Positions 1,152 to 47,704 of a DNA stretch of 64,000 nt are shown here, piece after piece. Location: the NCBI GenBank assembly GCA_030584065.1, contig CP129489.1, positions 706,640-770,639 of the forward strand. The letters run 5' to 3'. Both the position numbers and the translations under genes were made by a program. How positions within the stretch are numbered: position 1 is the stretch's first letter; each line of letters begins with the position of its first letter. The DNA is from Flavobacteriales bacterium (GTDB lineage Bacteria > Bacteroidota > Bacteroidia > Flavobacteriales_F > PHOS-HE28). Under the pieces are notes generated by a model. That model searched no databases. It was given only the letters and a program-made list of their open reading frames with translations, and was not told the origin of the DNA.

Positions 1152-1913
1152 ATGATCCGCAACGCTCTACTCTTCCTTGCGCTCGCCGCCAGTGCATCAG
1201 TGCTGGCGCAGCCCTGCACCCCCAACCCGCTGTATGCCGACAGCGTTTTCGGCGTATGGCCGGATACCCTTGAGAATTTTGCGCCGGCCACCTTGGGCCA
1301 GCCCTATAGCCAGGACCTCAACCTGATCGTTCCCCTGAACGCCCAGGACATCGATCCCACATTCCCGGCCGTGCAGATCGATTCGGTGGTGTTCGTGGGC
1401 GTCACCGGCCTGCCGGATGGACTGTCGGTCGCTTGTGCCTCCCAGACCCCGGCGCCCTGCACCTACCTGCCATCGGTGCTCGGCTGCGGCCTCATCTCCG
1501 GCACGCCGACCGTGGCTGATACATTCCCGCTCACCTTGGATGTGACGGGCTATTTCACCCTCTTCGGATCGGCGGTGCCTTACCCGCTCAGCTTTACCGG
1601 CTATCGCATCATCGTCACGGAGGATTTCTCAGGGACCGAGGAGCTGGCGGCACTGGGCCTGGCGGGCGTACGCAACGTCCCCAATCCGGTGCAGGGCCGC
1701 ACGCACATCGAGTTCCAGCTGAATCGCTCCAGCGAGGTGCGCGTGCGCGTCTTCAACCTGCTCGGCGATGAGCTCTGGAGTTTCAGGTCCTTGGCTAAGG
1801 CTGGCCTGAACCGTGTACCCTTCGAAGCCGGCGCCATGCCCGAAGGCGTGTACCTCTACAAGGTGGAAACGGGGCGCGAGGCATTCACGGGACGAATGAT
1901 GGTGAGCCGGTGA
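1152..1913 (+). CDS. Secreted protein with T9SS type A sorting domain
   Basis: 253 residues. The ATG at 1152 gives a clean signal peptide (residues 1-19, ending VLAQ). The central part (about 25-165) is a putative-Ig-type module with GLPDGLSVAC and CGLISGTPTVADTFPLTLDV, resembling GLPxGL...GTPT modules of cadherin-like domains. The last 80 residues are a T9SS type A sorting domain: NVPNPVQG, VRVFNLLGDELW, and MPEGVYLYKVE before the basic end. It should be exported by Sec, passed through the T9SS and anchored or released at the cell surface. It follows the STAS gene by 11 bases. No enzymatic motif was seen. Confidence 0.88.
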   Translation: MIRNALLFLALAASASVLAQPCTPNPLYADSVFGVWPDTLENFAPATLGQPYSQDLNLIVPLNAQDIDPTFPAVQIDSVVFVGVTGLPDGLSVACASQTPAPCTYLPSVLGCGLISGTPTVADTFPLTLDVTGYFTLFGSAVPYPLSFTGYRIIVTEDFSGTEELAALGLAGVRNVPNPVQGRTHIEFQLNRSSEVRVRVFNLLGDELWSFRSLAKAGLNRVPFEAGAMPEGVYLYKVETGREAFTGRMMVSR

Positions 1914-1936
1914 GCCGATCCCTTCAGTGAATATCC

Positions 1937-1960
1937 GGAAGGCCCCGCGAGGGGCCTTCC
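1937..1960 (+). terminator. Perfect 10-bp hairpin with GCGA loop before rnz
   Basis: GGAAGGCCCC (1937-1946), loop GCGA, GGGGCCTTCC (1951-1960). It lies 23 bases after the T9SS-cargo stop and only 7 bases before the rnz start. No T-run follows, so it may be an attenuator or mRNA-end structure and not a classical intrinsic terminator. Confidence 0.6.
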
Positions 1961-1967
1961 GCCTTCC

Positions 1968-2900
1968 ATGGGCCATCGACGGTTCGAATTGATCACGCTT
2001 GGCACCGGTGCTGCACTGCCGGCGCGCGGCAGGCATCCGTCGGCTCAGCTGCTCATCGTGCATGAAGAGCCCTACCTCATCGATTGCGGCGAGGGCACCC
2101 AGGAGCGCCTGCGGTCCATCGGCGCCAATTTCATGCGCATCGGCCATGTCTTCATCAGCCACCTGCACGGCGATCATTACCTGGGCCTCATGGGGCTCAT
2201 CAGCTCCATGCACCTGATGGGGCGAACCGCGCGATTGCACGTGCACGGCCCAGCGGAGCTCCGCGGCATCATCGATGTCCAGCTGCGGGCATCGCAGACC
2301 TACCTGCGCTACCCCTTGGAGTTCCATGCCATTGAACCCCTTTCGGGCGCCGTGGCCTGGCAAGATGCCCGCGTGAAGGTGTCGCTGCTGGCTTTGCGGC
2401 ATCGGATTCCCTGCACGGGCTTCGTCTTCGAGGAGACGCCCGCGCTCCGCTCCCTGCGGCCGGAAGCCCTCCGGTCTGTTCCGACCTTCATGCGTGCGCG
2501 CGTGAAGGCCGGCGAGGACCTGCAGCTGCCGGATGGCACCGTGCTGCCGAATTCAGCGCTGACCCATGCCCCGCCGCCGCCGAGGCGCTATGCCTATTGC
2601 TCCGATACCGCCTTCGCCCCGGAGCTCTTGCCCTTCATCCACGGCGTTGACCTGCTCTACCACGAGGCCACGTTCACCAGCCAGATGGCCAGGCGCGCGC
2701 GGGAGACCATGCACTCCACGGCCGCAGAGGCTGCGCGCATGGCCCTCGATGCCGGAGCCGGGCGCCTGCTGCTCGGCCATTTCAGCTCGCGCTACAAGAG
2801 CGCCGCTGAGCTCCTGGCCGAGGCCCTGCCCATATTCCCCAACACCGAGCTGAGCGAGGAGGGGCGGGGCTATCCGGTGATCGAACGATCGGCCGTGTAG
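1968..2900 (+). CDS. rnz: Ribonuclease Z
   Basis: tRNA 3'-end endonuclease of the metallo-beta-lactamase superfamily; cuts 3' trailers from tRNA precursors. 310 residues, the usual length of short RNase Z. The zinc motif SHLHGDHYLGL (H65, H67, D69, H70) is intact, preceded by LITLGTGAALP and IDCGEGTQ. The C-terminal half has CSDTAF and HEATF, then LLLGHFSSRY, supplying the other metal ligands and the arm region. The ATG at 1968 sits just after a strong hairpin. A small hairpin with a T-run follows the stop. Confidence 0.96.
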   Translation: MGHRRFELITLGTGAALPARGRHPSAQLLIVHEEPYLIDCGEGTQERLRSIGANFMRIGHVFISHLHGDHYLGLMGLISSMHLMGRTARLHVHGPAELRGIIDVQLRASQTYLRYPLEFHAIEPLSGAVAWQDARVKVSLLALRHRIPCTGFVFEETPALRSLRPEALRSVPTFMRARVKAGEDLQLPDGTVLPNSALTHAPPPPRRYAYCSDTAFAPELLPFIHGVDLLYHEATFTSQMARRARETMHSTAAEAARMALDAGAGRLLLGHFSSRYKSAAELLAEALPIFPNTELSEEGRGYPVIERSAV

Positions 2901-2916
2901 AACATGTGCGCGGTCG

Positions 2917-2937
2917 AGGGGCTTGTGCCCCTATTTT
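2917..2937 (+). terminator. Putative rnz terminator
   Basis: AGGGGC (2917-2922), loop TTGT, GCCCCT (2927-2932), then ATTTTC. It is a short but GC-only stem followed by T residues. The same bases (2932-2939, TATTTTCG) could be read as a one-mismatch -7 box for the response-regulator gene, so its role is ambiguous. Confidence 0.5.
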
Positions 2938-2965
2938 CGCGGTCTATCTGGAATCGGTCTAAATA

Positions 2966-3649
2966 ATGGCGTCCATCAAGCTCCTCTTGGCCGATCATGG
3001 CGAGTTGGCCCTGCTGGCCCTGCGCGCGGTCTTCGAAGCCGTGCCCGGTGTGGAGGTCGCGGGCAGCGCGCGGGACGGTATCTCACTTCAGGCGCTGCTG
3101 GTCCGGCATCGCCCGGACGTGGTGCTGATCGACCATACCTCGGACGGCTTCGCGGCCCGGGATATCCGGGAGGGCCTCAAGCGCGCGCCCCGCGCACGGT
3201 TCGTGGCCATCTCGCACGCGCCCTCCTCCTTGGCGATCATGAATGCCGTGAGGGCCGGGGCCACCAGCTACGTGAAGAAGGACTGCGACCTCAAGGAGAT
3301 CATCGACGCCGTCTCCACTGCGGCGAAGGGGCAGCGGTTCTTCTGCGGCAAGGTGCTGGAGACCCTGCGCCGCGCAGGCCATGATGCGGCCCGCTTCGCC
3401 GAGGAGCCGCTCTCGTGCGCTCCGGTCATCCTCAGCGACCGGGAATGCGAGATCATCGGGCTCATTGCAGAGGGCAACTCCTATACACGCATCGCCGAAC
3501 GCCTTCACCTCAGTGCGCATACGATCACCACGCACCGCAGGAACATCATGCAGAAGCTGGGCGTGAACAGCACGGCTGCCATCGTGCTCTATGCGGTGCG
3601 CAACGGGTTGGCCAGCCCGAACCACTTCCTCTTCAACGCCGGTCGCTAG
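2966..3649 (+). CDS. NarL/FixJ-type response regulator
   Basis: 227-residue two-component transcription factor. The receiver domain (about 1-125) has the probable phospho-acceptor D56 in VVLIDH and the lysine in SYVKKD. A short linker leads to a LuxR-type helix-turn-helix (about 153-215) with LSDRECEII, IAERLHLSAHTITTHRRNIMQKLGV. The acidic pocket near the N-terminus reads LLADHGE, so one of the usual paired acidic residues is replaced by histidine (ADH in place of DD/ED). No histidine kinase is adjacent. A sugar-kinase-like gene begins 23 bases downstream and is probably co-transcribed. Confidence 0.92.
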   Translation: MASIKLLLADHGELALLALRAVFEAVPGVEVAGSARDGISLQALLVRHRPDVVLIDHTSDGFAARDIREGLKRAPRARFVAISHAPSSLAIMNAVRAGATSYVKKDCDLKEIIDAVSTAAKGQRFFCGKVLETLRRAGHDAARFAEEPLSCAPVILSDRECEIIGLIAEGNSYTRIAERLHLSAHTITTHRRNIMQKLGVNSTAAIVLYAVRNGLASPNHFLFNAGR

Positions 3650-11959: not shown

Positions 11960-14059
11960 ATGCCGCGCGTCACGGTTCTCACCACGCTCTACAACAAGGG
12001 TCCCTTCGTGGAAGAGGCCGTGCGCAGTGCGCTGGCCAGCACCTTCACGGACCTTGAGGTCCTTGTGGTGGACGATGGAAGCACCGATGATGGCCCCGGA
12101 CGCGTGGCCGCCATCACCGACTCCCGTGTGCGCCTGTTACGCAGCGTGGCCAATGCCGGAAGGCCTGCTGCGGCCAACCGTGGCTTCGCGGAGGCCCGGG
12201 GCGAGTTCATCGCGGTGCTCGATGCCGATGACCTGATGCATCCCCAGCGGATCGCGAAGCAGGTCGCATTCCTGGATGCCCACACGGAAGTGGGTGCCGT
12301 CGGTACCGCGCTCAGCGTGTTCGGTGAGAAGTCGGAACAGTGGTCCTGGCCGGAGCATGACGAGGAAGCGCGCGGCCGTATGCTCTTCAGCGATCCCGTG
12401 TGCTACGGCACCTCCATGATCCGCCGGAGCTTGCTGCTGGACAATGGCCTGCGCTGCAACGAGGCCTGGCTGAGGCCCGGCATGGACTATCTGTTCCTGC
12501 TCTCCTTGGCGCAGCACACGCGCTTCGCCAACATCATGGAGCCGCTCACCTTCTATCGCGTGGGCGCTCAGAACATGCGCCATGGCCGTGATCCCGTGGA
12601 GGACCGGGCGCGCATCTATGCCGAGCAGTTCCGGGTCTTCGGGATACCCGCCACCGAAGAGGAGGTCCGATTGCAGTTGATGCTGCACCGCCTCTTCAGG
12701 CGGCCCCCGAATGCAGCGGATGTGCGCGCCTTGCGTGCCTGGATAAGCCGGCTGAAGGCGATGAACCGCTCATCCGGCACGTTCCCGGTGCCTGTATTCG
12801 AGGCGGAACTCGATCGCCGGTGGCAGGACATCTTTCATCCGGTGGCCGACTCCAGCGCGGCAGCGGCTTGGGCTCATCTGCGGCTCAGTCACGGCTGGTC
12901 AGCGGCGCGGCTGCGCTATCTAGCCGCCGCGGTGATCGCCCGTTGGCGGGGAGCGGGGCGCGTATCAGGCACCAGTGAGCCGATAAGGATCCATGCTCCG
13001 GCGGTGGGCACGGCGGTGCACGCGGACCGGACGAGGCCGGACCCGGCCATCCGGTACCCGCGCATCACGCTCGTCACCCCGAGCTTCGAGCAGGCCCAGT
13101 ACCTTGAGGAGTGCCTTTCTTCCGTGAAGGAGCAGGCTTATCCTGACCTTGAGCACATCGTGGTGGACGGCGGCAGCAGCGATGGCTCGGCGGGCATCAT
13201 CGCACGCCATGCCGATGACCTGGCATGGTGGTGCAGTGAGCGCGATGATGGGCAGAGCGATGCCATCACCAAAGGGGCGGCCAAGGGCAGCGGCGCAGTG
13301 TTCGGCTGGCTAAACAGCGATGACCTGCTGCTTCCCGGGGCGCTGCTGCGCGTAGGGGAGGCCTTCGCCCGCGATCCGTCCATGGCCGTGCTCTGCGGGG
13401 CCCGCATCCTTCGGAAGCCCGATGGCGATGTGGTGATCGCGCCGGAAGATGCTGAGCATCCGGAGACCTTCTTCACCGCTCCTCATGTCAACCAGCAGAG
13501 CACCTTCTACCGCATGGACGTGGTGCGCGAGATAGGATTCGTTGAGCGCAGGCTGGACTACGTGATGGACTACGAGCTTTGGCTCCAGGTGGTCTTCAGG
13601 CATGGGCCATCAGCGGTGCGCACTATCCCGGCGCCCCTATCCGTCTTCCGGCAGCATCCTGCCAGCAAGACGTCCCTTGTCCACCATCGCTTCCTCGATG
13701 AGATCGCCAGCGTCCTGCACGGGCTGTGCGCGTCCACCGGTCAGCGCGACCTTATGGCCGTGCTGGAACACGGGCATGTGATCACACCCGGCCTGCGCAG
13801 CATTCCCCTGCGCGATCCGGCGGCCGAGCGGGCCCGGGTCCGGGCCATGGTGGTCACCTTCCTCCTCAAGTGGCATTCCCGCATCTGGACGGCGCGTGAC
13901 TTCGGCATGATGCGGCTGTTCCGACGCACGATCGAGCTGGCGCCCCACGATGTGAACGAGGAGCAGCGTGCAGCCCTGGAGCGCCTGGATGCGCAGTTGC
14001 GTGTGCCGGGCTGGTGGGCATTCCGGGTGCGACGGAAACTGAATCATCTCTTGCGATGA
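11960..14059 (+). CDS. Double GT2 glycosyltransferase
   Basis: 699 residues with two GT-A (family 2) glycosyltransferase domains in one chain. Domain 1 (about 3-260): TVLTTLYNKGPF, VVDDGST, and the metal-binding DADD. Domain 2 (about 369-600): ITLVTPSFEQ, IVVDGGSSDGS, and NSDDLLLPGALL as the DXD equivalent. Start taken at ATG 11960, since a TTG upstream overlaps the possible promoter. It heads an operon with ATGA or GTGA overlaps through 19814, arguing for coordinated synthesis of a surface glycan. Donor and acceptor sugars cannot be told from sequence. Confidence 0.88.
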   Translation: MPRVTVLTTLYNKGPFVEEAVRSALASTFTDLEVLVVDDGSTDDGPGRVAAITDSRVRLLRSVANAGRPAAANRGFAEARGEFIAVLDADDLMHPQRIAKQVAFLDAHTEVGAVGTALSVFGEKSEQWSWPEHDEEARGRMLFSDPVCYGTSMIRRSLLLDNGLRCNEAWLRPGMDYLFLLSLAQHTRFANIMEPLTFYRVGAQNMRHGRDPVEDRARIYAEQFRVFGIPATEEEVRLQLMLHRLFRRPPNAADVRALRAWISRLKAMNRSSGTFPVPVFEAELDRRWQDIFHPVADSSAAAAWAHLRLSHGWSAARLRYLAAAVIARWRGAGRVSGTSEPIRIHAPAVGTAVHADRTRPDPAIRYPRITLVTPSFEQAQYLEECLSSVKEQAYPDLEHIVVDGGSSDGSAGIIARHADDLAWWCSERDDGQSDAITKGAAKGSGAVFGWLNSDDLLLPGALLRVGEAFARDPSMAVLCGARILRKPDGDVVIAPEDAEHPETFFTAPHVNQQSTFYRMDVVREIGFVERRLDYVMDYELWLQVVFRHGPSAVRTIPAPLSVFRQHPASKTSLVHHRFLDEIASVLHGLCASTGQRDLMAVLEHGHVITPGLRSIPLRDPAAERARVRAMVVTFLLKWHSRIWTARDFGMMRLFRRTIELAPHDVNEEQRAALERLDAQLRVPGWWAFRVRRKLNHLLR

Positions 14060-15045
14060 GGGTCAGCGTCGTCGTCCCGGTATACAACAAGGCTCCCTGG
14101 ATCCGGGAGAGCTTCGCCAGCATCTTCGCCCAGTCCTTTCGCGAAATCGAGGTGATCGCCGTGGACGATCGCAGCACCGACGAGAGCCTGGAGGTCCTCC
14201 GGAGCCTTGGCGATCCGCGGCTTCGGGTGGTGCAGCTCGAGCGGAACCTGGGCCCCGCTGGCGCAGCGCAGCGTGCCATGGATCTCGCCACGGGCGAGTA
14301 CGTGGTGCGGATGGACGCCGATGACATCATGTTCCCGGATCGCATCGCACAGCAAGTGGCGTTCATGGATGCGCATCCGGAATTGGGAGCAAGCGGCGGG
14401 CATCAGCTCGTGCTCGGGACGTCGGACCAGGTGATGCGCGCATCGCTGACCGATGCCGAATGCCGTGCAGGCCTGCTCTTCCAGATACCGATCTTCCAGC
14501 CCACCAGCATCTACCGGCGCAGCGTGCTGCTCACCCATGGCATCCGATTCCAGGATGAATGGCCCCGGTACGGCGAGGATTGGTGGATGCAGGCGCGCCT
14601 GTTGCAGGTGACGCAGATCGCCAACATCGACAGCCCGTTGATCCAGTATCGCGTGGGACCCCAGAACATCCGTGCGAGCAGCGACCGCACGGCCATGCTG
14701 AGCAGGCTGCACAGCGGGCTGTTCTCCTACATCGAATGGCCCATCGGTGAGGAGGGCCTGCGCGCCCACCTGCATGCGCTGAAATGGTTCCCCGAGCCTC
14801 TGGCCCCTGGCGATATCAGGGCAGTGGCCGTGCATCTCCATTGGCTCCGCGGCATGAATGCATCAACGGGCCGCTTCCCGGCAGAGGCATTCGAGGCCTG
14901 GGTGCTCAGGATCTGGCGTGAATTCGGCTATCGGCTGCCGCCCTTCGGCGTGCGCGCGATGCTGGCCTATTGCGGGGTCGACCCGAAGCCGACCTTCCCC
15001 CAGCTCAGGTACATGCTCACCTCATGGCTCACCGGCAGGGCATGA
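14056..15045 (+). CDS. GT2 family glycosyltransferase
   Basis: 329 residues, a single GT2 domain: VSVVVPVYNKAPWI at the N-terminus, IAVDDRSTDES and the DADD metal motif near residue 100. The C-terminal third (about 215-329) resembles the tail of the first domain in the upstream protein (YRVGPQNIRA and ALKWFPEP versus YRVGAQNMRH and MLHRLFRRP), so the two are paralogues by duplication. The ATG at 14056 overlaps the previous stop (ATGA). Specificity unknown. Confidence 0.87.
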   Translation: MRVSVVVPVYNKAPWIRESFASIFAQSFREIEVIAVDDRSTDESLEVLRSLGDPRLRVVQLERNLGPAGAAQRAMDLATGEYVVRMDADDIMFPDRIAQQVAFMDAHPELGASGGHQLVLGTSDQVMRASLTDAECRAGLLFQIPIFQPTSIYRRSVLLTHGIRFQDEWPRYGEDWWMQARLLQVTQIANIDSPLIQYRVGPQNIRASSDRTAMLSRLHSGLFSYIEWPIGEEGLRAHLHALKWFPEPLAPGDIRAVAVHLHWLRGMNASTGRFPAEAFEAWVLRIWREFGYRLPPFGVRAMLAYCGVDPKPTFPQLRYMLTSWLTGRA

Positions 15046-16001
15046 GTGCCGCAGGGAGAATGCAGCGCGTGGCGGTCATCGTGCCCTGCTTCAACGTGCG
15101 CCCTCATGTGGAGCGGGCGATGCGCTCGGCCCTGGAGCAAAGGGGCGTGGAGGTGGAGGTGATCGCCGTGGATGACGGGAGCAGCGATGGCACCCACGAG
15201 GCGCTCGTCGCTGTGGCGCGCACGCTCCCCTCCGCGATCCGTGTGCTGCGGCAGGCCAACCGCGGGGCCAGCGCGGCGCGCAACGCGGGATTGCGGGCCA
15301 CCGATGCCCCATGGATCCAGTTCCTCGATGCCGATGATGCGCTGCGCCCCGGCAAGCTCGCTGAGCAATGCGCGTTGGCCGGGGCTTGCGGCGGGGCAAT
15401 CGTGGCCGGCGCGTACAGCAACCATTTCGAGGATGGCCGCCCGGATGAGACGGTAGCGCCGCTGATGGGCGATCCGTGGGAGGCCCTGATCCGAACGCGC
15501 CTGGGAACGACCAGCGCTAATCTCTTTGAGCGTCGCGCCGTGCTGGATGCCGGTGGCTGGGAGGAGGGGCTGGGAAGCAGCCAGGACTATGAGCTCATGT
15601 TCCGCATGATGAAACGTGGAGCGACCGTTGCGTTCGACCCGGAGGTGAGGTGCGATGTGCTGAAGCGGAGCCAAGGATCCATCAGCCGTACCGGGGAGCG
15701 GGAGAACTGGTTGCGTTACCTGGAGCTCCGTAGGGCCATGCGCGATCATGTCAAAGGCCTTGGGCCACGTCATGCTGAGGCCGTGGCCATGGCCGATCAA
15801 TACTTGTTCATGGCGGTGCGCGTACTTTCGAGGCATGATCGCCAGGCGGCCTTCGCTGCATTCGACCGGCTGCTGCCGGCTGGCTTCGTTCCCAGCGTCA
15901 GCCCGGCCACCACGGCGGCATACGTCAAGGCTTATCGGTGGCTGGGGTTCCGAATGGCGGAGCGCTTGGCCGGGCTCATCGGCAGAATGACACGCGCATG
16001 A
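15042..16001 (+). CDS. GT2 family glycosyltransferase
   Basis: 319 residues, third GT2 enzyme of the operon: VAVIVPCFNVRPHV, IAVDDGSSDGTH, NRGASAARNAG and FLDADDALRPGK (metal site near residue 97). The sequence GSSQDYELMFRMMKRG in the middle is the usual acceptor-side ED-type motif. Start at ATG 15042 overlaps the preceding stop (ATGA); an upstream in-frame ATG would lie well inside the preceding gene. Specificity unknown. Confidence 0.87.
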   Translation: MSAAGRMQRVAVIVPCFNVRPHVERAMRSALEQRGVEVEVIAVDDGSSDGTHEALVAVARTLPSAIRVLRQANRGASAARNAGLRATDAPWIQFLDADDALRPGKLAEQCALAGACGGAIVAGAYSNHFEDGRPDETVAPLMGDPWEALIRTRLGTTSANLFERRAVLDAGGWEEGLGSSQDYELMFRMMKRGATVAFDPEVRCDVLKRSQGSISRTGERENWLRYLELRRAMRDHVKGLGPRHAEAVAMADQYLFMAVRVLSRHDRQAAFAAFDRLLPAGFVPSVSPATTAAYVKAYRWLGFRMAERLAGLIGRMTRA

Positions 16002-24271: not shown

Positions 24272-25051
24272 TCAACGCGTGTAGCAGCAGCGGTAGGATT
24301 GATGCTCATTGGACACGTACCAGGCCGTGGCATTCGAGCAGTTCGGCCCGACCAGCCTCACGGAGTTGTCCTCGTTGGCGGTGTCATCGGTGTACTCCCA
24401 GTTGTTCACCATGTTCGCCAGCCCCAAGGAACTCCGCAGCTGGCAGGCGTTGAACCACTCTCCCCAGGTGCAGAGCCGTTTGCCCTCTTGCGTGCATGCG
24501 GCTGCCGCATCGAAGAAGCTGATGGGGGACCGCTCATCCAGGTCGATGCAGAATTGCGAGGTGGCTGCGACCATGCCATCAGGGCATTCCTTCCGACGAT
24601 GGCTCACCCCGTTCATCACGTGGTATTCGGTTCCATCGAAGACCAGGGAGAGGAGCGTGCCCCCTGCGATCGAGGCGCCATCGATGGGTTCTCCGGCCCG
24701 CCAAACGACCGGGTAGGGGCCGGTGCCATTGAGTTCAAGTGTCACTCCACCTGCAGGGAGGGCATCCGGCACGGTCACCACGACATTCATCCCGGGCGTC
24801 GGCGCTCCATCCAAGGCGGGGAGCGCAAGCGACCAGGCTGAGCCACTCGGTGCAATGATGGACCGATGCGTACCGCTTTGATCCTGTGCGGCGCTCAGGA
24901 TCGCTCCCGGGACGGATACGGGCGGCACGCCGAGCACTTGGCGATCCGAGGCGGCCTGGCCGTCGAACTGCAGCGGTTTGTCGATGCCGATCTGCGGCAG
25001 GCACGGCAATGCGAGCAGGAGGCAGATGCCGGTGATCGGTAAGCGTGGCAT
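24272..25051 (-). CDS. Secreted eight-cysteine FGE/C-lectin-like protein (copy 3)
   Basis: 259 residues with a signal peptide (about 1-18). Three parts: an N-terminal stretch (PLQFDGQAASDRQVLGV) shared with its two neighbours; a middle beta module (about 85-150; GVTLELNGTGPYPVV, LVFDGTEYHVM) resembling repeats of phage tail fibres; and a C-terminal FGE-sulfatase/C-lectin-like domain with QFCIDLDE, GKRLCTWGEWFNAC, RLVGPNC and terminal YRCCYTR. The cysteine order C-C-C-C-C-C-CC is identical in all three copies. Starts one base after the upstream copy. It probably binds a ligand; no formylglycine-generating chemistry is claimed. Confidence 0.72.
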   Translation of the reverse strand: MPRLPITGICLLLALPCLPQIGIDKPLQFDGQAASDRQVLGVPPVSVPGAILSAAQDQSGTHRSIIAPSGSAWSLALPALDGAPTPGMNVVVTVPDALPAGGVTLELNGTGPYPVVWRAGEPIDGASIAGGTLLSLVFDGTEYHVMNGVSHRRKECPDGMVAATSQFCIDLDERSPISFFDAAAACTQEGKRLCTWGEWFNACQLRSSLGLANMVNNWEYTDDTANEDNSVRLVGPNCSNATAWYVSNEHQSYRCCYTR

Positions 25052-25052
25052 G

Positions 25053-25829
25053 TCAACGGAGGTGATAGCAGCACCGTGCGCGGCCGGGTTGGCTTACCAA
25101 GGTGGTGCGCTGGCTCATGCACGTGGTCCGGCCGGCCTGGTCTGCGCCATGGGTATGGTTGCTCGTATCATCGATCCATTCCCAGCTGCTGAACATGCCC
25201 GAGAGCTGGTTGCCCAAGAGCATGCAGGCGCTGGCGTATTCGCCCCATGTGCACAAGCGGCCTCCGCGTGAGGCGCATTGGCCGATGGCCCATAGCCAGG
25301 TGCCTTGGGCGGACCCGGGCGATGATTCAATGCAATAGCTGGGGTTGACCTGGACGAAGCCGCTAGGGCAGGAGCGCTCAGCAGCGGATAGCAGGGTGAA
25401 TCGGCCCTCTGCCTGGATCACCTCGGCCACTGTGCCGGCTTCGAGCTGCCCGAGCGCAACGGGCAATCCATCGGGGCGTACCAGCGGCAAGGGGGGCAGG
25501 CCGTCCACGGCTATGTGCAGCTGGCCCGCCAAGGGGCCGGGCACGCGGAACCTGACCAGCATCCCTTCTGCATAGGAAGTTGCTGGAGGCGAGAGCTGCA
25601 AGGCAATCACCGTGTCCTGAATGGTGGGCTCGCCCCACGCCCAAGCGGCGCGCACCGATCCGCCAACGGTAATCGCAGCGGTACCAGAGGCCGGTTCGGC
25701 CAGGTTCACCACCGCGCGCTCCTGTTCCGGCCCGGTGAGCACCAGTGGCACATCAAGGCGTACCTGTGCGCTCACGGTCTGAGCTGCGGTCACAAGGCTG
25801 AAGGCCAATGGCAGGGTCCGCTTCATCAT
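25053..25829 (-). CDS. Secreted eight-cysteine FGE/C-lectin-like protein (copy 2)
   Basis: 258 residues from the ATG at 25829 (MMKRTLPLAF, signal peptide ending VSAQ). Same three-part build as its neighbours: N-terminal LVLTGPEQERAVVNL, tail-fibre-like module (about 95-155; SYAEGMLVRFRV), then the cysteine-rich domain with SYCIESS, GGRLCTWGEYASAC, EWIDDTSNHT and ARCCYHLR. The start overlaps the upstream stop (ATGA). Divergence between copies is large outside the cysteines and the RLCT(W/F)xE(W/Y) motif, consistent with different ligands. Function unknown. Confidence 0.72.
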   Translation of the reverse strand: MMKRTLPLAFSLVTAAQTVSAQVRLDVPLVLTGPEQERAVVNLAEPASGTAAITVGGSVRAAWAWGEPTIQDTVIALQLSPPATSYAEGMLVRFRVPGPLAGQLHIAVDGLPPLPLVRPDGLPVALGQLEAGTVAEVIQAEGRFTLLSAAERSCPSGFVQVNPSYCIESSPGSAQGTWLWAIGQCASRGGRLCTWGEYASACMLLGNQLSGMFSSWEWIDDTSNHTHGADQAGRTTCMSQRTTLVSQPGRARCCYHLR

Positions 25830-26620
25830 CGGTGCGTGCAGCAGCGGAATCTCCCGCGTCCGTTCGAGATGCTCGCTTGGCCGCCATGTCCGCAATTGAT
25901 GCCCACGGGGCTTCCAGCGGTCCCGTCTCCTCCGTTGCCCACCAGCTTGGCCCCGTTCGCGTTGTTGGCAGCGCTATCTACCCACTCGTAGTCCAGGACG
26001 GTTCCGATGAACCCCGGATTCGATTGGCACGTGTGAACCCATTCAGCGAATGTGCAGAGCCGTGCATCCTTGGAGCGGCAATGCTGCAAGGCGGCGAGGA
26101 AGGTGGTGTCGGCTTGGGCGCTGTCCTCGATGCAGAACTCCCTGGCCCCGATGGAGTAACCTTGTCGGCAGGGGAGGTAGGTGGATGACAGCACCCGGAA
26201 GGCCTGACCATCGTAGGCCATTCGCACCGGGACGCCAGGAACAAGATCCGCACTGTCCAGCGGCAGCCCCCCATGCTTCAAGAGCAATCGAGGTCCAAGA
26301 CCATTGAGGCTCACGGTGGCAGCCGCGCTGTTCGATTCCGTGAGCACCATCGTCACCAGCATGCCGGCGGTATATGCCGATGGGGCGGGGGACAGGTCGC
26401 CCTCCAGCACAGCGCTCCCATTCACTTCCACGAAGGAGGTTGCCTGATTCCTCGCTGCATCCACGCTCACCGCGGCATCAGCGGATACAGGATAGGCCAA
26501 CCCCTCCACTTGACGCTGCTCGGGTGCGGAGCCGGTCAGCACCAAGCGTGCGGCGGATTCAAGCTGAGCCTGTCCAGTAAATGGCAGGGCGATCAGCAGT
26601 ATGGCGCCGAGCGGTTTCAT
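25826..26620 (-). CDS. Secreted eight-cysteine FGE/C-lectin-like protein (copy 1)
   Basis: 264 residues, signal peptide about 1-19 (ends GQAQ). N-terminal RLVLTGSAPEQRQVEGL, then the clearest tail-fibre-like module of the three (about 80-150: SAYTAGMLVTMVL, AATVSLNGLGPRLLL, VRMAYDGQAFRVL), then the cysteine-rich domain with EFCIEDS, DARLCTFAEWVHTC, YEWVDSAANN, KLVGNGGDG and FRCCTHR. Start overlaps the stop of the upstream T9SS cargo (ATGA). It has no T9SS sorting domain itself, so it is periplasmic, or depends on a partner for surface display. Confidence 0.73.
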   Translation of the reverse strand: MKPLGAILLIALPFTGQAQLESAARLVLTGSAPEQRQVEGLAYPVSADAAVSVDAARNQATSFVEVNGSAVLEGDLSPAPSAYTAGMLVTMVLTESNSAAATVSLNGLGPRLLLKHGGLPLDSADLVPGVPVRMAYDGQAFRVLSSTYLPCRQGYSIGAREFCIEDSAQADTTFLAALQHCRSKDARLCTFAEWVHTCQSNPGFIGTVLDYEWVDSAANNANGAKLVGNGGDGTAGSPVGINCGHGGQASISNGRGRFRCCTHR

Positions 26621-27504
26621 TCCCGGATCGCTTTCAGCATCGCCTGGCCTTGATTCACACGGATGATGTAAGCCCCTGGGGGTAGACCAGGCAACTGCAC
26701 CAACACTGACCGGCTCTGTTCAGGGCGGATATCCCGGAGCACCCGGCCTTGGCCATCCAGGACCTCGATTCGGTCGATCGGTCCACTGCGTAGGGCCTCT
26801 ATCCGGAGTTGATCCTCAAAGGGAGACGGCCAGCACAGGAAGGCCTTCTTATCCATGTCGAGGATGGCAGCCCCCGTGGCGCCAACCAGGTCGAACGCTG
26901 TGAAGTGGGTCTCAGGAGCGGGTCCTGTGGCAAGAAGCGTTTGGCTTGGGATGTCGTTCGATGTGGCCAGCGGCAGCCATGGGCCATCGGGACTCGGCGC
27001 TGCGAAGACCGCAAGCGCGGAAGGCAGTATTCCGGAGAGCTCGGTCACATCGTACCGCAGCGCGATCTCGACCCCTTCCGCTGTGGGAACGGGAGTGGTC
27101 ACGCGATACCACCTGGCGATCCCCACGGATCCGTTGGAACTGGTGCGGGGCAGGTGCCCCCGTTCCACGGTCAGCCCGCCCTGTGCGTAGGCCGAACTAA
27201 TAGTGAGACCCAACCCGCCAGGCTGCTCCCCGGCCAATGGTCCAGGTTCAGCACGCAGCGCCCGCTCAAAGCCGGAGCCAGTGATCGGATACCCCTGCGC
27301 TTCAGCGAGGATTCCCTCTCCACCTAGATCAATAAGGCCGTGATTCGTGACTCCTGCGCCCGGGCTCAGGTTCAGGTTCACGGGACCGAGGAACGATACT
27401 GTTGTTCCCGCCTCCACCGTCAGATGGCCTCCCAATAGAGCAGCATCCTGACCGACCGACGCGGCCGAGTGAATCCCAACCATGAGTGCGAGGGCCACGC
27501 GCAT
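26617..27504 (-). CDS. Secreted protein with T9SS type A sorting domain, first gene of the FGE-like operon
   Basis: 295 residues from the ATG at 27504 (MRVALALMVGIHSAASVGQ signal peptide). The body has a fillable beta pattern common in Bacteroidota autotransporter-like cargo (GGHLTVEAGTTVSFLGPVNL, VTNHGLIDLGGEG). The last 80 residues are a T9SS type A domain (CWPSPFEDQLRIEA, IEVLDGQGRVLRDI, LPPGAYIIRV). It is the only member of this operon with a T9SS signal and overlaps the first FGE-like gene by 4 bases, so it could be the surface anchor or carrier for them; this is inference. Confidence 0.82.
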   Translation of the reverse strand: MRVALALMVGIHSAASVGQDAALLGGHLTVEAGTTVSFLGPVNLNLSPGAGVTNHGLIDLGGEGILAEAQGYPITGSGFERALRAEPGPLAGEQPGGLGLTISSAYAQGGLTVERGHLPRTSSNGSVGIARWYRVTTPVPTAEGVEIALRYDVTELSGILPSALAVFAAPSPDGPWLPLATSNDIPSQTLLATGPAPETHFTAFDLVGATGAAILDMDKKAFLCWPSPFEDQLRIEALRSGPIDRIEVLDGQGRVLRDIRPEQSRSVLVQLPGLPPGAYIIRVNQGQAMLKAIRE

Positions 27505-27510
27505 GCACCG

Positions 27511-27518
27511 CAAACATA
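27511..27518 (-). promoter_or_regulatory. -7 box (TATGTTTG) of the FGE-like/acyltransferase operon
   Basis: Minus-strand TATGTTTG, perfect TAnnTTTG, 6 bases before the ATG at 27504. With the plus-strand box at 27580 it makes this 101-base gap a bidirectional promoter. Confidence 0.6.
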
Positions 27519-43324: not shown

Positions 43325-45511
43325 ATGGACCTTACCCTCAGCCGAATGATGCCGAAGAAGTTCCTCGCCACCGCGCTTTGCGGCCTATGCCTGCTGCCTG
43401 CATTCGCCCAGAACGGCGAATCGGACCCGGTGCTGATGACCGTTGACGGCCAGCCCGTGACCCGCGCGGAATTCGAAGCCATCTACAAGAAGAACAACAA
43501 GGAAGCCTCCGTTTCAAAGGAAGCGCTGGACGACTACCTCGAGCTCTTCATCAACTACAAGCTCAAGGTGCGCGAAGCCGAGAAGCTCGGCATGGATACC
43601 ATCGGCAAGTTCCGGTCAGAGCTCGACGGCTATCGCAAGCAGCTCTCCAGGCCCTACCTCATCGACCGCGAGCTGAACGATGCGCTCATCCGCGAGGCCT
43701 ATGACCGAAGCCAGCAGGAGGTCCGGGCGAGCCACATTCTGGTGCAGGTGGCGCCCGAGGCCACGCCCGAGGATACCATGGCCGCTTGGCGGAGGATCAG
43801 CGCCCTGCGCGACCGCGTGGTGCGCGGGGAGGACTTCGCCACGGTGGCGAAGGGCGTGGGCGGCAGCGAGGACCCCAGCGCCCAGAAGAATGGGGGGGAC
43901 CTCGGCTGGTTCAGCGCGCTGCAGATGGTCTATCCCTTCGAGAATGCAGCTTACAGCACCCCGGTCGGCGAAGTGAGCAAGCCGGTGCGCACCCGGTTCG
44001 GCTACCACATCCTGAAGGTGGCCGGCAAGCGCCCTGCGCGCGGACAGGTGAAGGTGGCGCACATCATGCTCCGCAGCACGGAGCAGGACAGCCCTGAGAA
44101 GCAGCGGCAGGCCGATGAGCGGATCCACGAGATCCACAAGCAGATTGAGGCCGGCACCCTCACCTTCGCCGATGCAGCGCTGAAATTCAGCGAGGACGAG
44201 AGCACCAACACGAAAGGCGGGGAGCTGCCCCAGTTCGGCACCGGCAAGATGATCGAGGAGTTCGAGGACGCCGCCTTCGCGCTGAAGTCACCCGGTCAGA
44301 TCAGCGCACCCATCAAGTCGCGCTTCGGCTGGCACATCATCAAGAGCATCGAGGTCATCCCCCCCGCGTCGTTCGAAACGGCCAAGGCGGAACTGAAGAC
44401 CAAGATCGCGCGCGACAGCCGCGCCGAGATCACGCGCAAGGCCTTCCTCGAGCGCCTGCGGAAGGAATATGCATTCGTCAGCTATCCGCAGAACCTCAAA
44501 GCCGTTTACGCGATGGTGGATACCACCGTGTTCAAGAAAGGGACCGCGGTCACCGACACCATCCTGCGCAAGCAGTTCGTGGAGGGCCCGTTCGTGAAGG
44601 GCAAGGGCGCCAAGGCCATCCGCTACCGCCGCGAATTGGCCGGGGCCATCAGTGGCGGGCGCATGCTTGCCGTGCGCAGCAGGCCCTATGAGGAGATGAC
44701 CCAGACCATGGACGATACCGTTGTGGTGCGCGAGGTCATGGAAGGGTGGGCCTACGACCGCAAGAAAGCCGCCAAGCTCACCAAGCCGGTCTTTTCCTTC
44801 GCAGGCGGCACGGTGACGCAGAAGGACCTGCTGGACCAGATCGAGAGCCGCCAGCGTCGCGAGCGCGTGGTGGCCATCCCGGCTTACGTCGATGCGCGCC
44901 TCAATGACTACGCGGAGGAGCGGATCCTGGCCTACGAGGATGCCAACCTCGAGACGAAGTACCCGGAGTTCCGGATGCTCATGAAGGAATACCGCGACGG
45001 CATCCTGCTCTTCGAACTCACCGACCAGAAGGTGTGGGGCAAGGCCGTGAAGGACAGCGCAGGCCTTGACGCCTTCCTCAAGGCGCATCCGGACAGGTTC
45101 ATGTGGCCTACCCGCTACGAGTGCGACCTCTATGCCTGCACCGATGCCGCCACCGCCAAGCTGGTGCGCGCGCAGCTTCGCAAAGGCAAGCGTGGCAAGG
45201 AGCTCATGGATATCGCCAATAAAGCGAACGCGCTCGCGCTCAGCATCGACGGGGGCGTGTTCACGGCCGAGGACAAGCCCTACCTGACCGGCCTCACCGC
45301 CACCGGCCTCAGCAAGGACATCCCCCACGACGGCAAGGTGATGCTCGTGGACCTGAAGAAGCTGATGGCGCCCGCGCCGAAGGCCTTGGATGAGGCGCGC
45401 GGCCTCATCACTGCGGCCTACCAGGATCAGCTGGAGAAGGATTGGATCCAGGAGCTCCGCGCCAAGTATCCCGTTACGGTGGACAAATCCGTCCTCTACT
45501 CCATCAAGTGA
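43325..45511 (+). CDS. Periplasmic peptidylprolyl isomerase with tandem parvulin domains
   Basis: 728 residues from ATG 43325; ATGs at 43346 and 43349 give a tighter signal peptide (MMPKKFLATALCGLCLLPAFAQ). An N-terminal SurA-like chaperone segment (MTVDGQPVTRAEFEAIYKKNN) precedes two parvulin domains (about 125-230, VRASHILVQV and RFGYHILKVAG; about 235-345, VKVAHIMLRS and RFGWHIIKSIEV). A long C-terminal alpha-rich region follows. It should assist outer-membrane protein folding. It opens a four-gene unit with the lipoprotein, SurA and MoxR genes. Confidence 0.9.
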   Translation: MDLTLSRMMPKKFLATALCGLCLLPAFAQNGESDPVLMTVDGQPVTRAEFEAIYKKNNKEASVSKEALDDYLELFINYKLKVREAEKLGMDTIGKFRSELDGYRKQLSRPYLIDRELNDALIREAYDRSQQEVRASHILVQVAPEATPEDTMAAWRRISALRDRVVRGEDFATVAKGVGGSEDPSAQKNGGDLGWFSALQMVYPFENAAYSTPVGEVSKPVRTRFGYHILKVAGKRPARGQVKVAHIMLRSTEQDSPEKQRQADERIHEIHKQIEAGTLTFADAALKFSEDESTNTKGGELPQFGTGKMIEEFEDAAFALKSPGQISAPIKSRFGWHIIKSIEVIPPASFETAKAELKTKIARDSRAEITRKAFLERLRKEYAFVSYPQNLKAVYAMVDTTVFKKGTAVTDTILRKQFVEGPFVKGKGAKAIRYRRELAGAISGGRMLAVRSRPYEEMTQTMDDTVVVREVMEGWAYDRKKAAKLTKPVFSFAGGTVTQKDLLDQIESRQRRERVVAIPAYVDARLNDYAEERILAYEDANLETKYPEFRMLMKEYRDGILLFELTDQKVWGKAVKDSAGLDAFLKAHPDRFMWPTRYECDLYACTDAATAKLVRAQLRKGKRGKELMDIANKANALALSIDGGVFTAEDKPYLTGLTATGLSKDIPHDGKVMLVDLKKLMAPAPKALDEARGLITAAYQDQLEKDWIQELRAKYPVTVDKSVLYSIK

Positions 45512-46359
45512 TCGGACGGGTATGCCGGACTTGGCGCGGGTGGGGAGCCGCCGGTCTGCTGGCAGTGGCTGTCGCAGGCTGCGCTGACGCCTCGGATGAG
45601 GAGGACCCGGTGGTGGCGCGGGCCTATGACCGCTACCTGCGGTGGAGCGACGTGCGCCAGCTGGTGCCGGTGGGTGCGAGCCCTGCGGATAGCAGCGCCA
45701 TGGTGCAGGCCTACGTGGCCAATTGGGTCCGCCAGCAGGTGGAGCTCAGGCACGCCGAGCTGAACCTGGCCGAGGCGCGCAAGCAGTTCGAGGCCGAGCT
45801 GCGCGACTACCGGAACTCACTGCTGCTGCATGCCTACGAGGAGGAGCTGGTCCGGCAGCGTCTGGACACGGCCATCGGTCCGGAGGAGGTGGAGGGCTTC
45901 TACGAGCGGAACACCGAGCGCTTCGACCTGCAGGACGATATCCTGCGCGTGCGGTGGTTCAAGGTCCCCGATGACGACAAGCGTGCGCTGAAGCGGATGG
46001 AGGAGCGATTCCGGAGCGGCGACCCCGCACAGATGCGGGAGGTGGAGCTGCAACTGGCCAGCCGCGGCATCACCATCCAGGACCGCAGCGCGGCATGGAC
46101 CACCCTTGCCGAGCTGCGCAATGAGGTGCCGCTGGAGGCTGCAGCAGGGACGGGCCGCTCGGTGATCCGCTCGGATTCGGCGGCTTGGTTCCTCGATATC
46201 GTCGAACTTCGTCCCCGCCTTTCACCTGCCCCCATTGAACTGGTGCGGCAGGAGATCCGGTCCATACTGCTGAATGAGCGGAAGCTCCGGCTCATCGAGC
46301 GGATGCGTGATGACCTATACCGTGAAGCCCTTGCAGCCAACGAGATCGAGACGCATTGA
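45508..46359 (+). CDS. SurA-like lipoprotein lacking a parvulin domain
   Basis: 283 residues from a GTG that overlaps the previous stop (GTGA). A lipobox AVAGC places the lipidated cysteine at residue 25. The rest is alpha-helical and charged (YLRWSDVRQLVP, VANWVRQQVELRHAEL, RLDTAIGPEEVEGFYERN), resembling the chaperone part of SurA/PpiD proteins; no parvulin motif was found. It probably works with its neighbours in moving or folding outer-membrane proteins; this is inferred from context. The 3' end overlaps the surA-like gene by 50 bases. Confidence 0.8.
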   Translation: MIGRVCRTWRGWGAAGLLAVAVAGCADASDEEDPVVARAYDRYLRWSDVRQLVPVGASPADSSAMVQAYVANWVRQQVELRHAELNLAEARKQFEAELRDYRNSLLLHAYEEELVRQRLDTAIGPEEVEGFYERNTERFDLQDDILRVRWFKVPDDDKRALKRMEERFRSGDPAQMREVELQLASRGITIQDRSAAWTTLAELRNEVPLEAAAGTGRSVIRSDSAAWFLDIVELRPRLSPAPIELVRQEIRSILLNERKLRLIERMRDDLYREALAANEIETH

Positions 46360-47704
46360 GGCCTGGGCGCTCGCCCTGCTGCTACCGGCGCTCCACGTAT
46401 GCGGGCAGCCCAAGCCGTTGCTTATCGACAAGGTGGCGGCTGTGGTCGGCCGGGAGCCCGTGCTGTTCTCCGAAGTGGTGACGAAGGCCGAGCAGGCGCG
46501 CCAATCCGGTGCGGCAGGCCCGGGCGTCGAATGCGAGTCACTGGAGGACCTGCTCTACGAGCGGCTGCTGGTGGAGCAGGGAAAGCTGGACAGCGTGCAG
46601 GTGGACGAGGGCCAGGTGAATGCGGAGCTCGATCGCCGTATCCGCTATTTCGCCCAGCAATTGGGCGGCGAGCGCAAGCTGGAGGAGTTCTATGGCAAGA
46701 GCGTCGCTGAGATCAAATCGGACTTCAAGCAGCAGGTGCATGATCAGCTGCTCACTCAGCAGATGCACCAGCGCATCACCGCGGATATGACCTTGACACC
46801 GAAGGAGGTGCGCCGCTTCTACGAGCGCATCCCAGAGGACAGTGTCCCGCTCATCGGCGCGGAGGTGGAGTACGCGCTCATCCTGCGGATCCCGAAGCCC
46901 ACGGAGGAAGAGGACCGCCGCGTGAGGCGGAAGATGGAGGAGTTCCGCGAGGCCGTGGCGAAGGGAGAGAAGGACTTCTGCACCGTGGCCATCCTCTACT
47001 CCGAGGACCCCGGCTCCGCCAAGGATTGCGGGGAGTTGGGCCTCGTACCGCCGGGCGTGATGGTACCCGAATTCGATGCGGTGGCCATGAGCCTCAAGGA
47101 AGGGGAGGTGTCGCAGGTGTTCAAGACACAGTTCGGGTGGCACTTCATGCAGATGATTGAGCGGCGCGGAGAGCAATACAATGCCCGCCATGTGCTCATG
47201 CGCCCGCAGGTGTCCCCGTCCGACCTGCTGCGTCAGCGCGACTTCCTCGACAGCCTGCGCACCGCCATCCGGGACGGCCGCACCACATTCGGCCAGGCGG
47301 CACTCGAGCATAGCGATGATGAGGAGAGCCGAAGCACCAACGGCATTATGGTGGAACCCAACTCGAACGGTGTGCGCTGGGACCTGAAGGAGCTCGACCA
47401 GCAGACCTTCTTCGTCCTCGATAGGCTGAAGCCCGGCGAGGTGAGCGAGCCGCAGGTACTCGTCATGCCCGATGCCACCAAGGCCTACCGGCTCCTCCAG
47501 CTCATCGCACGCACCGACCCGCACCGTGCCAATCTGCGGGATGACTATCGGCTCATCCAGCAGGCTGCCGAGGGCAAGAAGCGCTCCGAGGCCGTTGACC
47601 GATGGGTGAATGAGCACATCGCCACCACCTACGTCCGCATCGACCCGGCCTATGCCGAATGTCCCTTCACCCACCCTTGGAACAAGGCCGCCAAGGGCCA
47701 ATGA
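46310..47704 (+). CDS. surA: SurA-type peptidylprolyl isomerase
   Basis: 464 residues from ATG 46310, with a signal peptide after a basic start (RSRRIEAWALALLLPALHVCGQ). The SurA N-terminal chaperone domain (about 38-180) has DKVAAVVGREPVLFSEV and the FYGKSVAEIKSDFKQQV segment. A first parvulin domain (about 185-300) has CGELGLVPPGVMVPEFD and TQFGWHFMQMIERRG; a second, more degenerate one follows (NARHVLM, SEPQVLVMPDATKAYRLL). Periplasmic chaperone for outer-membrane proteins. It begins inside the lipoprotein gene and is followed by moxR after nine bases. Confidence 0.9.
   Translation: MTYTVKPLQPTRSRRIEAWALALLLPALHVCGQPKPLLIDKVAAVVGREPVLFSEVVTKAEQARQSGAAGPGVECESLEDLLYERLLVEQGKLDSVQVDEGQVNAELDRRIRYFAQQLGGERKLEEFYGKSVAEIKSDFKQQVHDQLLTQQMHQRITADMTLTPKEVRRFYERIPEDSVPLIGAEVEYALILRIPKPTEEEDRRVRRKMEEFREAVAKGEKDFCTVAILYSEDPGSAKDCGELGLVPPGVMVPEFDAVAMSLKEGEVSQVFKTQFGWHFMQMIERRGEQYNARHVLMRPQVSPSDLLRQRDFLDSLRTAIRDGRTTFGQAALEHSDDEESRSTNGIMVEPNSNGVRWDLKELDQQTFFVLDRLKPGEVSEPQVLVMPDATKAYRLLQLIARTDPHRANLRDDYRLIQQAAEGKKRSEAVDRWVNEHIATTYVRIDPAYAECPFTHPWNKAAKGQ

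Follow-up and report, generated by a model that had tools for sequence, protein, structure and literature searches.

Three lectin-like chains kept as a fixed set suggest one mixed surface fibre in a genus of Flavobacteriales

The closest described relatives of the proteins reported here are the MAT fibres of Bdellovibrio, especially Bd2740 (structure 8OKS), which are secreted, contain phage-like modules and end in a tip of C-type-lectin fold (PMC10769870). They are long trimers encoded by single genes (627 amino acids in Bd2740); MAT proteins carry a conserved beta-rich N-terminal domain of ~130 amino acids after the signal peptide, for which there is no PDB structure, and Bd2740 does not bind calcium (PMC10769870). 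A related fold occurs in the trimeric C-terminal domain of Legionella Lcl (8Q4E), which binds sulphated glycans (PMC11162425). We analysed a locus in a stretch of 64,000 nucleotides (hereafter the window) from a Flavobacteriales bacterium (GTDB lineage PHOS-HE28; GCA_030584065.1, contig CP129489.1, positions 706,640 to 770,639 of the forward strand), in which a gene for a predicted cargo of the type IX secretion system (T9SS), called X, is followed by three paralogous genes for proteins with a lectin-like tip, chains A, B and C (Table 1). Unlike the MAT fibres, this system has three short chains (258-264 amino acids) in a fixed ABC set, a T9SS cargo and a polysaccharide locus around it; Lcl, in contrast, has a single chain type on a collagen stalk, is a substrate of type II secretion and is not accompanied by A/B/C chains. 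The comparison of genomes suggests that the three lectin-like chains make up a single mixed fibre on the surface, as opposed to three separate binders. A partial survey of the literature found nothing on heterotrimeric lectin-fold fibres, on CotH in exopolysaccharide loci or on T9SS-linked lectins for this system.

The family and the order, as sampled, comprise this one genus only, and 45 of its genomes, mostly metagenome-assembled, were compared. The paralogues were present in 31 of them. An unlabelled tree of about 118 proteins from these 31 genomes resolved three clades that correspond to operon positions 1, 2 and 3, and every full-length chain scored more than 100 bits better with its own class than with the others (a comparison that is partly circular, because operon position defined the class profiles). 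Each genome had either three or six chains, except for genomes with contig ends and one further genome (G036), and all arrays outside G036 are part of an (ABC)n series. When an array was counted as complete if it had a gene on both sides on the same contig, with the window species counted once, 17 of the 24 complete arrays were ABC and five were ABCABC. Both of the others, an AC and a BC array, come from G036, an assembly that is 72% complete and fragmented and that still holds all three chain types. It is the sole genome with split arrays (L050): X-A-C lies at 1793-3362, in the main locus, and B-C at 13614-15142, ~10 kb away among glycosyltransferases. Coupled starts were kept as well, with a 4-base overlap between A and B in 29 of 35 cases and between B and C in 23 of 35. 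In the double arrays, of which there are five, chain distances agreed best or second best, among 32 possible swaps, when the chains were paired into blocks as they actually occur; one likely C-to-C exchange was detected (in G023), and no exchange between chain classes was seen. Orthologous chains fall to about 30-50% identity across the genus with the classes still at 1:1:1. The A-B-C arrangement recurs in about 30 genomes and is beyond chance, and the gene order seen in the window is indeed conserved among relatives. A second full ABC triad was also observed in G007 (L038, 6023-8372), amid glycosyltransferases and without X.

Outside the genus, a search of 395 evenly drawn genomes of the class gave matches mostly to one module, either the tip or the middle. 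At the ten tip loci examined, the tip forms the end of a lone protein, often a long one (150 to 2600 residues), and the neighbouring sequence that was covered contains no tandem partners; several such single-protein tips from other families of Bacteroidia (L142-L149, proteins of 200-2600 aa) have lost part of the eight cysteines described below. Patterns of chain B, searched against 85,000 species genomes, matched only in metagenome assemblies of Flavobacteriales/Bacteroidota. At the sensitivity of the searches used, the short three-chain form appears to be limited to this genus.

The three chains can be aligned end to end (31-34% identity to A in a three-way alignment), and the alignment bears out the earlier note on this DNA, made from the sequence alone, in that all three share the same eight cysteines, which lie within the last ~105 residues; chain C has two additional cysteines, both inside the signal peptide. 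Among 118 homologues, 14 positions are common to all chains in at least 90% of the sequences: the eight cysteines, the predicted N-terminal Gln of the mature protein, E198, E219-W220, A182 and G87 (P0004 numbering). An N-terminal Gln after cleavage by signal peptidase I is common in Bacteroidota, and because the residue fits such cleavage the chains are probably not lipoproteins. Other residues are specific to one chain, R58, W199 and K232 being invariant in chain A (P0004 numbering) and H227 (100% of sequences), H229 (86%) and W64 (97%) marking chain B. The extra cysteines of some chain B sequences were considered as inter-chain bonds and rejected, as most sequences lack them and their positions are scattered.

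Pfam and NCBIfam searches with A, B and C gave no match above the cut-off. A profile of the three chains matched the phage tail-fibre protein gp47 (9b45) over the middle module (E 1.5e-5), in agreement with the tail-fibre-like module proposed earlier, and matched 8OKS over the tip (E 0.0017). The AlphaFold2 model of chain C, made from 53 sequences, reached a predicted local distance difference test score (pLDDT) of 89.6 and a predicted TM-score of 0.61; the latter is low, and the mutual placing of the domains is therefore uncertain. Its residues 153-259 found their best fold match in the Bd2740 tip, 8OKS (Z 13.6, root-mean-square deviation (rmsd) 1.9 over 98 residues), followed by Lcl (Z 12.5) and many C-type lectins (Z 10.5-12; snake C-type lectins about 11-12); Mtd of Bordetella phage aligned with an rmsd of 1.6 over 105 residues. 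A C-type-lectin fold is thus supported by the model across the whole domain. With signal peptide, phage-like stalk and a putative adhesive tip at the C-terminus, the predicted chains follow the pattern of the MAT superfamily.

The tips are not the variable part of these proteins. Among four close relatives, conservation of tip versus stalk was 0.90 versus 0.71 in A, 0.83 versus 0.74 in C and 0.82 versus 0.79 in B, and the nonsynonymous rate (dN) was well under the synonymous rate (dS), with the tips under purifying selection; genus-wide, the tips are at least as conserved as the stalks. When two assemblies of the window species are compared, A differs at one residue, and B and C are identical. 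Mtd also forms a trimeric tip of C-type-lectin fold, one that is varied by a diversity-generating retroelement. Unlike Mtd, the A/B/C set differs by that one residue between the two assemblies, and a search of the single-contig genome for reverse transcriptase (PF00078) gave no match while its controls did. A retroelement scaffold was therefore rejected (no reverse transcriptase, tips not variable), and so was a hypervariable binder, since the tips are conserved among near relatives and vary hardly at all within the species.

The sorting domain of X scored just below the Pfam cut-off (E 1e-4, 23 versus 27 bits). In the AlphaFold2 model of X (pLDDT 87.6), residues 220-295 match the C-terminal domain of RemA (Z 10.0, rmsd 2.0 over 73 residues), and by this predicted C-terminal sorting domain X is classed as a T9SS type A cargo. 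A homologue of X stands immediately upstream of A in nearly all loci, as expected from the earlier proposal that a T9SS cargo is joined to the paralogues. X was found in 29 of the 31 triad genomes and in one other genome, and its N-terminal domain is almost confined to triad genomes. In a fragmented genome (G035, L138, from 2712) we also noted an X homologue with no A, B or C behind it and a glycosyltransferase next to it.

The surrounding locus is syntenic throughout the genus, with glycosyltransferase and epimerase genes followed by C-B-A-X on the opposite strand; on the other side of X, divergently, stand c8, CotH1, a Wzy/O-antigen ligase, CotH2, a metallophosphoesterase and another epimerase (Pfam assignments). 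Genomes without the triad keep Wzy and the glycosyltransferases, and X, A, B, C, c8 and both CotH genes are absent from that place. The partners that co-occur with X-A-B-C are the two genes of CotH-family kinases, which the earlier note had not linked to the set: an orthologue of CotH1 is present in 29/31 triad genomes versus 1/14 others and one of CotH2 in 29/31 versus 2/14 (Fisher p about 2e-8 and 3e-7, respectively, both overstated because the genomes are related and kinship is ignored), the exceptions being mostly fragmented or incomplete assemblies. Both proteins pass the Pfam cut-off for the family (23.8 bits), CotH1 with 131 bits and CotH2 with 27.4. Phosphorylation of a coat protein by Bacillus CotH is reported (PMC7821199), and c8 with the two CotH genes may possibly constitute an extracellular phosphorylation system.

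Since the three classes are kept at 1:1:1 while their neighbours vary (X, the MBOAT/SGNH pair and glycosyltransferases are gained and lost around ABC), and since the structural relatives of the tip are trimers (PMC10769870, PMC11162425), we consider that A, B and C probably assemble as obligate partners into one heteromeric fibre, for which a 1:1:1 trimer is the likeliest form. In each chain, the signal peptide would be followed by a short trimerising module of tail-fibre type and by a tip of C-type-lectin fold rich in disulphides, and the fibre would end in a three-faced lectin-like head. Three paralogous chains, likewise called A, B and C, form the heterotrimer of complement C1q. A similar logic is found in the archaeal PCNA of Metallosphaera, where three paralogous genes supply one chain each per ring (PMC4894655); both proteins are unrelated to A/B/C, and for the latter the stoichiometry is what we infer. 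X, translated just ahead of A, would be exported by the T9SS to the outer surface and would probably carry or anchor the fibre. Because of the lectin-like fold and the setting in a polysaccharide locus, the head may bind a glycan, most simply the polymer made by the surrounding Wzy/glycosyltransferase locus, and the complex could tether or organise this polysaccharide or join the polymer to another surface. The two adjacent CotH-family kinases may modify X, A, B, C or the polymer, which is probably also acylated where the MBOAT/SGNH pair follows. For the account taken as a whole (a heteromeric A-B-C fibre, displayed on the surface, binding a glycan, with X as its probable carrier) we regard the chances as evenly balanced, and its most specific version, a C1q-like heterotrimer exported with a T9SS carrier, served by two CotH kinases and organising the cell's own polysaccharide, is offered tentatively.

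Several points weigh against this account. The structure predictions are of single chains, and shared inheritance of an operon with coupled translation, passed on vertically, could preserve the gene order without any assembly; residues specific to a chain are to be expected of old paralogues in any case. No sorting domain of their own was matched in A, B and C by Pfam or NCBIfam, their C-terminus being the lectin-fold tip, and export of the chains to the surface is therefore a guess. Genome G012 lacks X beside its triad at a fully sequenced place, where A adjoins c8, and second triads also lack X; hence X is not always needed, and of its proposed part as surface carrier the assignment as a T9SS cargo holds and an obligate role is doubtful. 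Glycan binding by the tips is putative. Finally, the known relatives with this tip, Bd2740, Lcl and Mtd, are homotrimers (PMC10769870), which together with the low identity of the chains (31-34%) and their chain-specific invariant residues would suit three separate homotrimeric adhesins of different specificity, held together by a shared operon and an old triplication. The earlier note had read the paralogues as three secreted binders of different specificity. If the adhesins acted independently, their number in a tandem array should vary, and yet 22 of the 24 complete arrays show no loss or duplication of a single chain although their neighbours come and go, duplication has proceeded by whole ABC blocks, and the tips are conserved, not diversified, among near relatives. 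Because of this co-presence, the positional orthology, the block duplication and the tip conservation, one multi-chain complex fits better, and we consider three independent adhesins unlikely.

Less probable still is an accessory complex of the periplasm or outer membrane for the making or export of the polysaccharide, with X an unrelated surface protein. It would be compatible with the position of ABC inside a Wzy/glycosyltransferase locus, with chains that have no T9SS signal and with the absence of X from G012 and from L042, but X has a coupled start beside nearly all first triads, and the near restriction of its N-terminal domain to triad genomes also speaks against an unrelated protein. 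Moreover, the polysaccharide locus persists in genomes without the triad, and synthesis of the polymer therefore does not require ABC.

In contrast to the reading as a mixed fibre, a set of FGE/EgtB-like catalytic domains modifying a substrate is very improbable. The fold matches of the chain C tip do include FGE (Z about 10-11) and EgtB chains, and the WEW motif recalls the FGE family, but against the FGE-sulfatase family (PF03781) chain C scores 12 bits versus a cut-off of 23.3, A and B do not match, and the domain, at about 105 residues, corresponds to no more than a portion of an FGE fold of roughly 270 residues, with no catalytic site identified. The domain had been described as FGE/C-lectin-like; the fold part of this description stands, and membership of the FGE family was rejected on the Pfam score. 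Domesticated or decaying phage tail-fibre genes, suggested by the middle module, can be dismissed almost entirely: the match is confined to that module, the annotated surroundings contain no phage genes, and all three chains have signal peptides, belong to a genus-wide stable locus and show purifying selection.

In the window, all six genes of the operon (X-A-B-C-MBOAT-SGNH-like) were recovered on the minus strand with the positions, overlaps and gaps first reported. A four-base overlap with the sequence ATGA joins X to A (26617-26620) and A to B (25826-25829), and the gaps are 1 base between B and C, 39 between C and MBOAT and 1 between MBOAT and SGNH. A promoter box of the type TAnnTTTG was found in 13 of 23 regions upstream of X, compared to 0.7% of random windows, and most boxes lie 13-16 bases before the start of X, which suggests a very short mRNA leader or none. 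Reading of the 39-base gap from C to MBOAT in the window showed no such box, and a single transcript from X to the SGNH-like gene, driven by one promoter as the earlier note proposed, is plausible.

Table 1. Features of the X-A-B-C locus and its neighbours in the window
Feature	Positions	Strand	Remarks
TATGTTTG, Bacteroidota -7-type promoter box (TAnnTTTG)	27511..27518	-	14 bases before X start codon
X, predicted T9SS type A cargo, 295 aa	26617..27504	-	~200-aa beta-rich domain, then sorting domain (residues 220-295)
Chain A (operon position 1), 264 aa	25826..26620	-	lectin-fold tip with eight cysteines, after signal peptide and tail-fibre-like module
Chain B (operon position 2), 258 aa	25053..25829	-	A/B/C paralogue
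Chain C (operon position 3), 259 aa	24272..25051	-	tip (residues 153-259) of predicted C-type-lectin fold
MBOAT O-acyltransferase, DltB-like, 477 aa	22799..24232	-	Pfam 1.8e-31; DltB structures 5e-26; optional neighbour
SGNH-like partner of MBOAT, 297 aa	21904..22797	-	GDSH and D-x-x-H-type end motif, read by eye; optional
c8, hydrophobic protein, 133 aa	27606..28007	+	divergent from X; member of co-occurring block
CotH1, CotH-family kinase, 553 aa	28011..29672	+	Pfam CotH 8.8e-38
Wzy/O-antigen-ligase-like protein, 448 aa	29685..31031	+	Pfam Wzy_C 1.1e-13; genus-wide polysaccharide gene
CotH2, second CotH-family protein, 834 aa	31058..33562	+	Pfam CotH 3e-6

DltB/DltD and AlgI/AlgJ are known acylation pairs of an MBOAT and an SGNH protein. 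The adjacent MBOAT and SGNH-like genes of the window resemble them, and the MBOAT matches the DltB structure 6BUG by sequence; unlike those pairs, the pair here is optional next to the triad. In the window species and in eight more it follows C after 24-39 bases (one of these eight has a contig end behind MBOAT), and it lies 1.2 kb from C in one further species; because it is absent beside the remaining loci, we regard it as an optional add-on, and the earlier joining of the acyltransferases to the set holds for about ten loci in several species and fails for the others. The SGNH-like protein gave nothing above noise in Pfam or PDB searches and is homologous to its positional counterparts in other loci (hhalign 96.7%).

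Elsewhere in the window we noted a T9SS cargo of 1959 aa that matches the N-terminal beta domain of hyaluronate lyase (53580-59459), an 860-aa protein combining Ig_7 and a lysyl-oxidase-like domain (50920-53502), and an unassigned 283-aa protein flanked by two genes of PPIC-type peptidyl-prolyl isomerases, with a MoxR AAA gene next to them (43325-47704).

The best-matching solved bacterial tips of C-type-lectin fold sit on fibres of one chain type, and the fixed three-chain set would, if the reading as a mixed fibre is true, represent a heteromeric lectin fibre in bacteria. It would also pose the problem of how proteins that carry no sorting signal exit the cell together with a T9SS partner, and it would provide a candidate substrate system for the secreted CotH-family kinases of Bacteroidota.

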